Assembly (NCBI GenBank): GCA_016872645.1
Contig: VGZH01000010.1
Coordinates: 1-64,000 of the forward strand
DNA: 64,000 nt
DNA from: Planctomycetota bacterium
GTDB lineage: Bacteria; Planctomycetota; Planctomycetia; Planctomycetales; Planctomycetaceae
Direction: 5' to 3'
Part shown: one piece after another, positions 35,583-47,727 of the stretch
How positions within the stretch are numbered: the first letter of the stretch is position 1
How the letters are laid out: every line of letters begins with the position of its first letter
The notes under the pieces: model-generated
Told to the model about the DNA's origin: nothing
The model's input: the letters and a program-made list of their open reading frames with translations, nothing else
Database searches by the model: none
Made by a program: the position numbers and the translations under genes

Positions 35583-35671
35583 AAGTCTCGCTGACGAATG
35601 GCCGGGCATCAGCTCTCTGAATTCTATATGCTCCTCGTGTTCGAACTCCTTTGTTCTTCGCGAGACTGCTC

Positions 35672-36589
35672 GTGCCCGACCGCAATGAACTCGCTCTGAT
35701 CGACTGGATTCGCCAGCGAGCCGCGTTTGTCTCGAATCTGCAAGTCGGCATTGGCGACGATTGTGCTGTTTGGCAGCCCAGCGGTTCGCCCCTGCTGTTC
35801 ACGACCGATGTGCTGATGGAGGGCGTCGACTTCCGAGTCGACGAGACGACGCCTCAACTGATCGGTCGCAAAGCGATGGCCGTGAACCTCAGCGACATCG
35901 CGGCAATGGCTGGACGACCGCTGGCGGCGCTGGTGGGTGTTGCTCTGCCGAAGTTGCGAGGCTTTGACTTTGCCAAGCAACTTCACGAGGGGATGCAGTC
36001 GCTCGCCGATGAGTTTGGCGTCGCAATCGTCGGCGGCGACACGAACACTTGGGACGGACCGCTCGTCATCAGCGCGACCCTGATTGGTGAGGCGACGGAA
36101 CAAGGTCCGGTTCGACGTTCGGGTGCGAAGCCGGGAGATTGGCTATTTGTCACCGGCCCGCTCGGCGGCAGCATCCTTGGTCATCATTTAACGTTCACTC
36201 CGCGAGTCCGCGAGGCCCAGGAACTACACCGTCTGGTCGATTTGCATGCGATGATCGACCTCAGCGATGGACTCGCTGCTGACCTGCATCATCTGCTCGA
36301 CGAAAGCGGTGTCGGTGCGACGTTGTTTGAAGATGCTATTCCAATTTCTAAAGCGGCAGGTGGGATGACTGACAACCGCAATTCGCTCGATCATGCTCTG
36401 AACGATGGCGAGGACTTTGAATTACTCTTCGCCGTCTCAGCCAGCGACGGGGCGAAGCTTCTCCCGACGACAGGCAATGCCACCGCGATGCGGATCGGTG
36501 AAGTCGAGAGTCACCCGGGATGTCGCATTCAGATGCGTGACAGGATCGTGCGCGAGGTGAAGCGGGGCGGCTGGGAGCACTCGTTTTGA
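35672..36589 (+). CDS. thiL: Thiamine-monophosphate kinase
   Basis: ThiL phosphorylates thiamine monophosphate to thiamine diphosphate in the cytoplasm. The 305-residue product has the expected length and PurM/SelD-fold motifs: V-G-I-G-D-D-C-A-V near the N-terminus, T-T-D-V-L-M-E-G-V-D-F, N-L-S-D-I-A-A-M-A-G, I-V-G-G-D-T-N and I-D-L-S-D-G-L. It lacks the Cys/Sec-containing N-terminal loop of SelD, so it is not a selenophosphate synthetase. The GTG at 35672 gives a family-like N-terminus; the TTG at 35651 is an alternative. Thiamine diphosphate would serve the decarboxylase encoded at 10895-12640. Confidence 0.9.
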   Translation: MPDRNELALIDWIRQRAAFVSNLQVGIGDDCAVWQPSGSPLLFTTDVLMEGVDFRVDETTPQLIGRKAMAVNLSDIAAMAGRPLAALVGVALPKLRGFDFAKQLHEGMQSLADEFGVAIVGGDTNTWDGPLVISATLIGEATEQGPVRRSGAKPGDWLFVTGPLGGSILGHHLTFTPRVREAQELHRLVDLHAMIDLSDGLAADLHHLLDESGVGATLFEDAIPISKAAGGMTDNRNSLDHALNDGEDFELLFAVSASDGAKLLPTTGNATAMRIGEVESHPGCRIQMRDRIVREVKRGGWEHSF

Positions 36590-43586: not shown

Positions 43587-43855
43587 GGGAAACTCCTTTA
43601 GCTAGCAGTGGACTACCGCGACCAAGAATTGAATGGCAAATGAGGTTATCAACCCCAAATGCCCGTATCTAGGTTGTTTGGCTGATTGATTGCCAACCGG
43701 CAATCCCCGGCAAGAACCCGGTTTGGGGTCATTGACGTTGGAAAATCAAGAGCCGTATCATCCGGGCCATGTGATTGGCGGAGAGCTGGTCGCGTCGCCG
43801 TTCATTCAGTGATTTCTTTCCCGGCGACTTTCATCACATCGGTAGAATTCCTCGG

Positions 43856-46417
43856 ATGTTTCAGGACTTCGGCAAGCTGGTATCACGAACGTGGCCGTTG
43901 TTGCTGGTCGCTTGGCTGGTGGTTTTGATCGGCCTGAAATTACTGGCTCCATCTTGGGGAAGTGTGGCCCGCTCCGGCGAATTCGCGTTTTTGCCAAAGG
44001 ATTCTCCCAGCCTGGCTGCGGAGGAGATTTTCCAAAAGGCATGGGGAACACCGCTTGCCAGCAACCTGGTGATTGTCGTGCGTCGCGAGAGCTCGCCGAC
44101 CGGACTGCTCGACGGCGACAAAGCCTTTATCAATGAGGTTTTACGAGAACGGCTACAAAAGATTGGCGACGAGGAAACGGCCTTTCTTCAGCCGCAGACT
44201 GCACAGCCTGCGAACATTCCTCGACAGGCCAGCGGTGAAGAAGCTGGCTCTGCCGATGAACTCAAAACCATCGAGGTTCGAACCCTCTCGGACAAATCGG
44301 TGGGCCGACTTCTCAACAGCGAAGATAGGCAGGCGTCGCTTGTCCTGATGGAACTTCCGACTGAGTTCTTGGACTCCCGCAACGCCCGATTGATCGAGCG
44401 AGTCGAGAAACTGATCGAGCGCAATGGGGAACTGCAATCCAACGGGCTTGTCCCGAGCGGTCTGGACTTGGCATTGAGCGGGTCCGCGACGGTTGGCCGG
44501 GACATGATGCGGGCAGCGCGTGAAAGCTCGCGAGACACAGAGCACTGGACGGTCTTGCTGGTCTTGTTCCTGCTGATTCTGATCTACCATGCTCCGCTGA
44601 TGGCAATAATTCCGCTGATGACCGTTGCGGTCGCCACGGAAATTTCGCTGGCTCTGCTGGCCTGCCTTGCGCAAGCCGGGGTCGTCAATCTGTTCTCCGG
44701 CATCGAAGTCTATGTCAAGGTGCTCAGTTATGGGGTTGGTGTCGATTACTGCTTATTTCTAATTGCCCGGTACAGGGAGGAATTAAACGAGGGTGCGACG
44801 CTCGACCAAGCGGTAGAGAACTCGCTGGCCAAAGTCGGCCATGCCCTAATCGCGAGCGCCGGGACAGTCATCTGCGGCATCTTCATGATGTACTTCGCTG
44901 AGTTCGGAAAATTCAGTCAAGCGGGGATTGCCATCACCGTTGGCTTGGTGATTGTGTTGATGGCGGCACTCACATTTTCGCCGGCACTGTTGCGGATGGC
45001 CCGGCACTGGGCGTTCTGGCCGCGCCCCACCGGTCAAAGTCTCGTACAGACCGCCGGATGGGTTTCGGCGACATCGCTATGGTCACGGTTCTTCGAGCGG
45101 AACTGGGGGCAACTGGCTTGGACGAAAGTCAGCGACTTGGTGCGATGCCGACCCGGCACCGTGCTGCTGACCAGTGTCCTGATCATGGCGCCATTTGCCT
45201 GGGTCGGCGTGCAGTTTCATGGCCACCTCAGTTATGGCTTGCTTAGCGAATTGCCGCAAGAAACCACCAGCGTTGTTGGGGCCGTGGCGGTTGCAGAGCA
45301 TTATCCTCCGGGAATCGCCGGGCCTATCACGGTGCTCATTCAGGCGGAATCGGGGTCGTTTCTCGATGAGGATGACGGCAAATTGACCGACCAAGCCAAG
45401 GCCATCATCAAAATGCTGACCGAGCAACTTCGAGAACAGCAGGAAGAACTGCAATTAGCCGACGTCCGCACGATGTTGCATCCGTTTGGCGGGGGACTTT
45501 CCAACATCGCTCATGATGATGCGGCGCGGCAGAGCAGCGATTCGGAAATCCAACTGACAAGCGGATCGAAGCTGCTCAGCGGTCTTGCCAATAAGTTGGA
45601 ATCCCAGCGCATGACTCAGCACTACGTCAGTTCCAACGGCGACCTGCAGGGGCGCGTCCTGCGATTCGATCTTGTCTTGCAAGAGGATCCATTCGCACGC
45701 AACAGCATCGCACAATTCGAATCGATTCGCCGTTCGATCGAAGCATCGATTCCGGCAGGAATGAAAGTTTTCACACTGGGTCCGACCGCGAGCATTCGTG
45801 ATCTCAAAGCGGTGACCGACCGCGATCAAATCCGAATCGATATCCTCGTCCTCGGGGGAGTGTTTTTGATTTTAATGGCGTTGTTGCGGCGACTGACGAT
45901 CTCGCTGTACCTGATCGTCAGCGTCTTCTTTAGCTATCTGGTGACACTGGGAATGACCTTCGCCGTCTACTGGCTGATGAATCCTTCCGGGTTTGCGGGG
46001 TTGGACTGGAAGGTGCCGATGTTTCTGTTCACGATCCTGATTGCGGTCGGCGAAGACTACAACATCTTTTTGATGACTCGCATCGACGAAGAACAACGCC
46101 GGCATGGTCCGGTGGTTGGCGTCATCGTCGCCCTGCAAAAGACAGGCAGCATCATTTCGAGTTGCGGTATCATCATGGCAGGAACATTTTGCTCGCTGCT
46201 GGCTGGATCGCTGGTGGGACTCCATCAATTGGGCTTTGCGCTGGCCTTCGGCGTGCTCTTGGATACGTTCGTCGTGCGGCCGATTCTCGTGCCGGCATTT
46301 CTGGTGCTGCTGTACGACGGGCGTCTGAAAAGCCTCAAACATTTGCTGGCTCGCGCTGACCAACCATTGTCATCTGCGGCCGAAGTGACTCAACCCGTGG
46401 ATGTGGGAGGCGAATGA
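43856..46417 (+). CDS. MMPL/RND-family membrane transporter
   Basis: The 853-residue protein has the RND layout. It has an N-terminal helix (R-T-W-P-L-L-L-V-A-W-L-V-V-L), a large periplasmic loop and five to six membrane segments with the Y-G-V-G-V-D-Y-C-L-F-L motif. A second helix/loop/helix half follows, with an A-V-G-E-D-Y-N-I-F-L-M motif. The acidic residues (D, E-D) in those motifs are the expected proton-relay positions. MMPL members export lipids, hopanoids or drugs; the cargo is unknown. ATG 43856 directly precedes the N-terminal helix. Its stop overlaps the start of the thioredoxin-like gene, so the two are translationally coupled. Confidence 0.88.
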   Translation: MFQDFGKLVSRTWPLLLVAWLVVLIGLKLLAPSWGSVARSGEFAFLPKDSPSLAAEEIFQKAWGTPLASNLVIVVRRESSPTGLLDGDKAFINEVLRERLQKIGDEETAFLQPQTAQPANIPRQASGEEAGSADELKTIEVRTLSDKSVGRLLNSEDRQASLVLMELPTEFLDSRNARLIERVEKLIERNGELQSNGLVPSGLDLALSGSATVGRDMMRAARESSRDTEHWTVLLVLFLLILIYHAPLMAIIPLMTVAVATEISLALLACLAQAGVVNLFSGIEVYVKVLSYGVGVDYCLFLIARYREELNEGATLDQAVENSLAKVGHALIASAGTVICGIFMMYFAEFGKFSQAGIAITVGLVIVLMAALTFSPALLRMARHWAFWPRPTGQSLVQTAGWVSATSLWSRFFERNWGQLAWTKVSDLVRCRPGTVLLTSVLIMAPFAWVGVQFHGHLSYGLLSELPQETTSVVGAVAVAEHYPPGIAGPITVLIQAESGSFLDEDDGKLTDQAKAIIKMLTEQLREQQEELQLADVRTMLHPFGGGLSNIAHDDAARQSSDSEIQLTSGSKLLSGLANKLESQRMTQHYVSSNGDLQGRVLRFDLVLQEDPFARNSIAQFESIRRSIEASIPAGMKVFTLGPTASIRDLKAVTDRDQIRIDILVLGGVFLILMALLRRLTISLYLIVSVFFSYLVTLGMTFAVYWLMNPSGFAGLDWKVPMFLFTILIAVGEDYNIFLMTRIDEEQRRHGPVVGVIVALQKTGSIISSCGIIMAGTFCSLLAGSLVGLHQLGFALAFGVLLDTFVVRPILVPAFLVLLYDGRLKSLKHLLARADQPLSSAAEVTQPVDVGGE

Positions 46418-47727
46418 TGCGTGGAGCGGCTTGGATCGCATTTTTGATCATCTGCGTTGTGACGCTCAGTCACAGGAGTGTGGCCCAAGACTCCATCCCA
46501 GGTTGGCACTCGAATCTGGAGGAAGCTCGCAAGCTGGCGGAATCGACGGGCAAGCCCTTGTTCATCACGTTTCGTTGCGTGCGTTGACCGGAGTGTTGGC
46601 TGTGGGATGGGCAGGTTGCTCAGGAAGACCCCGAAATCCGTCAAGCTCGTGCGGACTATATCTGCGTCCGCGTGACCTCGATGAATCGGGTGGACATTGC
46701 GCGCTTCGAGTTTGACTTCGACACGACTTGGGCCGCCTTCTTCACGGACTCGAAGCTGCGCATCTACAGCCGGTACGGAGGCCGCGACGAGCATGAACCG
46801 GAATCGCGGCTCAGCAAATCATCATTATTGCAAACTATGCGTGAGTCATTGGACGCTCACAAATTGGCTCGGGCCACGGTAACCGGCGGGGCCGAGGCTG
46901 TGCCGCCAGCGGCGCCGATTTGGCATCCAGAGCCGATTTCGTCGACGACACCGCTCGACATTCCGCTGCTGAAGAAGAGTCACAACGGCTGTGTTCACTG
47001 TCACCAAATTCGTGAATACAGCCTGTTGCAGGCGTATCACGACAAGCGTTTCCAGCGTGAGATGTTGTTCACGTATCCGCTGCCCGAATCGCTCGGTATC
47101 GAGGTCGACCGCGTTCACGGGCATCGTGTGGCAAAAGTTGGAGATGGTTCCCCAGCCGCCGATGCCAAGCTGAGTTCTGGAGACATTATCACCCGCTGCG
47201 CAGAAGTGCCGATTCGTTCGGACCTCGACTTGCGGTGGGCGTTGCATCGTCTGCCACCGACGAGCAAACGAGTGACTCTGCTGGTGGAACGACAAATGTC
47301 CAATCTTGGCGATTCAGCGGCGCGTTCCACCGAAATCGTTTTGTCGCTGCCAAACGGGTGGCGGCAAAGCGAATTGAGTTGGCGCAAGTCCTCCCGCAGC
47401 GTTCCTTCGGATTGGGGTTTTCGCGGCGCGGCGCTCGCCAAGTTTGAACGTCGCGAAGCCAATTTGCCGGAGTCGGGCTTGGCCATTCGAGTCTTGTCGA
47501 TCAAGCCGCGAGGATTTGCGCAAGCTCTTGGTCTGCACAAAGGTGACGTCATCACGGGCTTAGCGGGGGACACACGCGAACGTTCGCTCGACCGACTTCG
47601 TTCGGACATGCTGCGACGCTTTGCCCCAGGCGACGAGGTTCGGCTGACAGTCCTCCGGAGCGAGCAAACGCTGGAACTCAGCGGAAAATTCCCCGCTTGG
47701 TTTACGGAAGAAACAACAGTGCCGTGA
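46417..47727 (+). CDS. Candidate selenoprotein: exported thioredoxin-like protein with PDZ domains, in-frame TGA at 46585-46587
   Basis: ATG 46417 has GGAGG (46406-46410) 6 bases upstream and overlaps the MMPL stop by one base. The frame reads a signal peptide (A-A-W-I-A-F-L-I-I-C-V-V-T-L ... V-A-Q) and a thioredoxin-like start (E-A-R-K-L-A-E-S-T-G-K-P-L-F-I-T-F-R). Then comes C54-V-R-TGA57-P-E-C60, after which the same frame stays open to 47727 (436 residues if TGA is decoded). The TGA falls where the family has the second Cys of CxxC, so selenocysteine is the best reading. Downstream are a C-V-H-C-H heme c motif and PDZ-like regions near about 230-300 and 350-430. A plain caller would start at 46672. 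Nonsense mutation or sequencing error remains possible. Confidence 0.7.
46591..46621 (+). promoter_or_regulatory. Candidate bacterial SECIS-like hairpin after the TGA
   Basis: By hand, GAGU (46591-46594) pairs with GCUC (46618-46621) and GGCUG (46598-46602) pairs with CAG-(g)-UU (46612-46617), leaving a 9-base loop UGGGAUGGG (46603-46611). The loop begins 16 bases after the TGA and has G at its second position, which fits the loose bacterial SECIS rules. The stem is imperfect and includes G-U pairs, so this is weak evidence. Confidence 0.3.

Follow-up and report, generated by a model that had tools for sequence, protein, structure and literature searches.

Comparative evidence for selenocysteine at an in-frame TGA of a planctomycete Trx7/PDZ-family gene

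The locus and its encoded protein

The window analyzed here is a 64,000-nucleotide stretch of DNA from a bacterium of the Planctomycetaceae (contig VGZH01000010.1), and all features under study lie on its forward strand (Table 1). An MMPL/RND-type membrane protein gene, typed by an earlier sequence-only reading and by its appearance, ends in a TGA (46415-46417) that overlaps the ATG start codon (46417) of a second gene. The frame of this second gene closes with an ordinary TGA stop at 47725-47727 and contains a sole internal TGA, on either side of which it is open. Translation around the internal TGA gives T-G-K-P-L-F-I-T-F-R-C54-V-R-U57-P-E-C60, where U is selenocysteine (Sec). The sequence-only reading had put the gene forward as a candidate selenoprotein; when the GGAGG, the overlap with the MMPL stop, the single TGA, and the 436-residue frame on which it drew were re-read, all matched.

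Table 1. Features of the locus in window coordinates
Feature	Position	Strand	Details
MMPL/RND-type membrane protein gene	43775..46417	+	ORF; MMPL type by earlier reading and appearance
Shine-Dalgarno-like GGAGG	46406..46410	+	6 nt 5' of ATG; read directly
Predicted selenoprotein gene, Trx7/PDZ type	46417..47727	+	436 residues including one Sec
Signal-peptide-like N terminus	46417..46488	+	Hydrophobic stretch then S-V-A-Q-D; read from translation
Thioredoxin_7, residues 30-92	46504..46692	+	Pfam PF13899, 35.9 bits, cut-off 27
Redox motif C54-x-x-U57-x-x-C60	46576..46596	+	Position 57 Sec or Cys only
Predicted Sec-encoding TGA	46585..46587	+	Codon 57; 34 aligned TGA versus 18 TGC/TGT
Putative SECIS apical hairpin UGGGC-AGGUU-GCUCA	46608..46622	+	Loop 25 nt after UGA
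C192-V-H-C195-H196, c-type-heme-like CxxCH	46990..47004	+	C192, C195, H196 in 38/38 homologs
First PDZ, residues 226-293	47092..47295	+	PF13180, 61.1 bits, over cut-off, two stretches

The segment just before C54 had been described as thioredoxin-like, and Thioredoxin_7 (PF13899) was matched over its cut-off. The portion 3' of the TGA, described as family-like, is conserved as well and carries the CxxCH motif and PDZ. A second PDZ-like stretch covers approximately residues 334 to 423, with HtrA/DegS-type PDZ matches at 334 to 422. No cytochrome domain was matched in the selenoprotein by Pfam at E values up to 1, and no trypsin-like protease domain was identified in Pfam; the DegP, DegS, and HtrA models matched the PDZ parts only, far below cut-off. 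AlphaFold modeling on nine close homologs returned a mean pLDDT of 49.7, too poor for use, and statements on the fold and on the role of CxxCH therefore rest on sequence.

Selenocysteine machinery, homologs, and a downstream hairpin

The genome from which the window derives was searched for the Sec machinery, and selA, selB, selD, and tRNA-Sec were all found, each over its curated cut-off. SelA (440 bits with PF03841 and 519.5 bits with TIGR00474), SelB (333.5 bits; cut-off, 242), and SelD (297 bits; cut-off, 125) are all full-length, and the tRNA-Sec (score, 75.3; cut-off, 47) was independently called by ARAGORN with the anticodon TCA. The selD sequence (L028; contig C23:9115-10047) closes a 753-codon frame, the first half of which resembles by eye a pyridine-nucleotide-disulfide/NADH-dehydrogenase-type oxidoreductase; SelD of this genome appears to be a fusion with an oxidoreductase-like half. 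Within the window itself, a frame at 35651-36589 was matched weakly by the SelD model and looks like a thiamine-monophosphate kinase (ThiL), not a second SelD.

Alignment of homologs showed TGA at the codon 57 column in 34 sequences (window gene included) and TGC or TGT in the other 18; no residue other than Sec or Cys occurred at this position among them. Every aligned homolog thus has one or the other, as expected if the TGA stands in for a redox Cys. All eight close relatives identified in a contig search (71 to 87% identity) carry TGA at codon 57, and across 101 genomes of the same family the codon persists in homologs down to approximately 30% protein identity. The TGA-carrying genomes of this sample (n = 20) came from 15 genera, and all 20 encoded a full-length SelA over cut-off versus 45 of the 101 genomes overall (hypergeometric P, 4.7e-9, relatedness ignored). 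In G032, the genome of L043, the sole close Cys form, selA over cut-off was not found, and the best match was far below it. The flanking cysteines vary little: C60 is present in all 38 homologs and C54 in 37, with L049 having Sec there. The exchange of Sec and Cys tracks the presence of the machinery, and no other result speaks as strongly for a Sec-encoding TGA.

The genome of the window also carries, close to a contig end, a Cys-containing (CVPC) paralog of the Trx7/PDZ family (L068; contig C102:207-1359), whose frame is interrupted by in-frame stops that reflect either a decayed gene or an assembly error. Near relatives of this planctomycete (L020 to L022) come from assemblies deposited as 'Candidatus Kuenenia stuttgartiensis', and further ones bear the label Planctomyces; these names may be wrong.

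At 46608-46622, a conserved stem-loop follows the TGA. Its five pairs are present in each of the 34 Sec sequences (32 distinct), with the outer U-A pair replaced by C-G in ten of the 32 distinct sequences, a compensatory change, and a middle pair varying among G-U, G-C, and A-U. When a sixth, less conserved pair was counted, 94.3% of cells were paired in the Sec sequences, and none of 500 shuffles matched this pairing or the covariation score of the set, although the covariation partly reflects shared descent and one pair has changed on both sides. In the 18 Cys homologs, the same columns were 27.8% paired, equal to shuffles, and the hairpin is absent. Among divergent Sec genes, codons 65 and 66, within the hairpin, had a synonymous identity of 100% (gene mean, 42%). 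More distant Sec forms swap the whole stem (e.g., CCAAC/GUUGG in L082 and GACC/GGUC in L079) and retain a hairpin spaced similarly from the UGA.

The window sequence agrees with the bacterial SECIS model (PMC13188914) in its loop (AGGUU or GGU), 5- to 6-bp stem, and 25-nt spacing. That model sets a free-energy threshold of −7.5 kcal/mol, and the window hairpin alone, at about −5.6 to −5.9 kcal/mol, lies above it and folds no better than shuffles; with flanks it reaches −14.3 kcal/mol, yet shuffles do as well. In relatives beyond the nearest group, hairpin energies are mostly −7 to −14 kcal/mol. Thermodynamic folding by itself did not single out the window hairpin; conservation and covariation did. 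The sequence-only reading had drawn a weak SECIS-like hairpin at 46591-46621, of which only the 3' part overlaps the conserved stem-loop. That placement was dropped in favor of 46608-46622, the element shared by the Sec sequences.

Alternative readings and possible role

Taken at face value, the internal TGA could be a genuine stop, produced by gene decay or sequencing error, or one after which the downstream part begins at an internal codon. The assembly is fragmented (213 contigs), and a 351-codon open reading frame does begin at GTG 46672. However, the TGA recurs in the 34 aligned sequences, many of them from independent genomes; the protein sequence both before and after it is conserved; and where TGA is lacking, Cys takes its place, with the conserved hairpin following the TGA forms only. 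Error or gene decay is unlikely, since neither predicts a recurring TGA, an exchange with Cys, and a TGA-specific hairpin, and because independent genomes keep the TGA at codon 57, sequencing error in particular can be ruled out. Overall, a genuine stop is very improbable.

Equally little credence attaches to translation of the TGA as an ordinary amino acid such as Trp, Gly, or Cys, through a reassigned code or leaky readthrough. An in-frame TGA considered by itself would look identical under that explanation, but the MMPL gene and the selenoprotein gene both terminate at TGA, so that TGA acts as a stop elsewhere and global reassignment is contradicted. Moreover, the replacing residue is always Cys, the TGA forms occur only together with selA in the 101-genome sample, and a SECIS-type element lies downstream. 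With the machinery in the genome, TGA kept by 34 sequences, and Cys otherwise, the selenocysteine reading is strongly supported by comparative evidence, and the TGA at 46585-46587 is almost certainly a Sec codon in a gene whose product belongs to the known Trx7/PDZ family.

If so, the UGA at codon 57 would be read as Sec by SelB and tRNA-Sec, directed by the downstream SECIS hairpin. Cys54 and Sec57 would then form the active site of the thioredoxin-like domain, with a reversible selenenylsulfide between them, and Cys60 would be an invariant third thiol. The two PDZ domains could hold protein substrates, and the invariant CxxCH could bind a c-type heme through which electrons reach or leave the redox pair. 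Judged from its domains and motifs, the protein is plausibly a thiol/selenol oxidoreductase of the periplasm with other proteins as its substrates; participation of a heme is a more tentative proposal, as no cytochrome domain was detected.

Compatible with Sec at codon 57 is a narrower role for the protein as a dedicated partner of the MMPL protein, for example in reducing or repairing the transporter or its cargo in the periplasm. The overlapping stop and start codons in the window would suit such a pairing, as would the same upstream neighbor in L020 to L027, L032, L033, L034, L038, and L047. However, no MMPL match was present in the approximately 1.3 to 1.5 kb available upstream of seven loci (L036, L037, L039, L041, L042, L044, and L045), nor in the upstream sequence of similar length available for the Cys form L043. 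As several homologs are without it over that distance, the selenoprotein does not need the MMPL neighbor, and a dedicated partnership appears unlikely. The coupling to an MMPL transporter proposed by the sequence-only reading thus holds for the closest relatives and, beyond them, for four genera (L033, L034, L038, and L047); it was not seen in most others within the flanks available, and as a family-wide trait it was rejected. The upstream MMPL protein at L038 seems to contain an inserted PDZ-like segment (TPATDSGLRPGDRIIEVEG...) that is lacking in the MMPL protein of the window.

Relation to known selenoproteins

The encoded protein matched the NCBIfam model NF041199 (trx7_PDZ_seleno) at 360.9 bits, over the equivalog cut-off of 300, across residues 29 to 423 and profile positions 2 to 388 of 390. 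This family, named 'Trx7/PDZ domain-containing (seleno)protein', has a CxxU motif and Thioredoxin_7 followed by PDZ, like the window protein, and nothing essential differs between them. An exported thioredoxin-like/PDZ selenoprotein had seemed new from the sequence alone, but the family is already catalogued, both by NF041199 and in a 2026 review that describes it as CxxU with one Sec and credits Zhang and Gladyshev 2008 (PMC13188914). The window protein thus adds to a family already known, and its organism is one in which the internal TGA would easily be missed. Standard annotation would end the gene at residue 56 or begin it downstream, and the active site would be lost. In the literature found, the NF041199 family is backed by computation alone; the comparative set adds clean support for Sec at position 57 and a defined SECIS.

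A phylum-wide search identified many Trx7/PDZ homologs with two in-frame TGAs. In the eight that were read (L049, L076, L079, L082, L087, L091, L094, and L104), the TGAs occupy both active-site Cys codons (UxxU), and in L104 a strong hairpin lies 3' of both (z, −3.07). The planctomycete Trx7/PDZ family thus probably includes a UxxU branch, in which one SECIS hairpin would serve two UGAs nine bases apart; the window gene is of the ordinary CxxU form. Among the few sources covered, PMC13188914 does not mention UxxU for the NF041199 family, and this form may be new. The CxxC, CxxU, and UxxU forms make up a natural series for the contribution of Sec to an exported oxidoreductase.

Zhang and Gladyshev 2008 described a CxxU selenoprotein, 'putative secreted serine protease MucD', from the Global Ocean Sampling set, giving only two Sec sequences (PMC2398784), and a review from 2022 includes a 'PDZ domain-containing protein' with Thioredoxin_7 and CxxU (PMC9312934). 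Given the credit in PMC13188914, the NF041199 family was probably first described in PMC2398784, as the MucD selenoprotein. By its description this selenoprotein shares CxxU with the window protein, and the name MucD would fit the PDZ similarity to HtrA/MucD. The Cys-containing planctomycete Trx7/PDZ homologs (e.g., L043, L054, and L058) have the same domain order, with CxxCxxC and CxxCH, but unlike the window gene they encode Cys at position 57 and are without the SECIS hairpin. SelW has a thioredoxin-like fold and is a separate family without PDZ or CxxCH, its resemblance to the window protein being one of motif only. In SelW-type selenoproteins the motif is CxxU (PMC13188914), and Sec stands in place of the second Cys of CxxC, as it does here.
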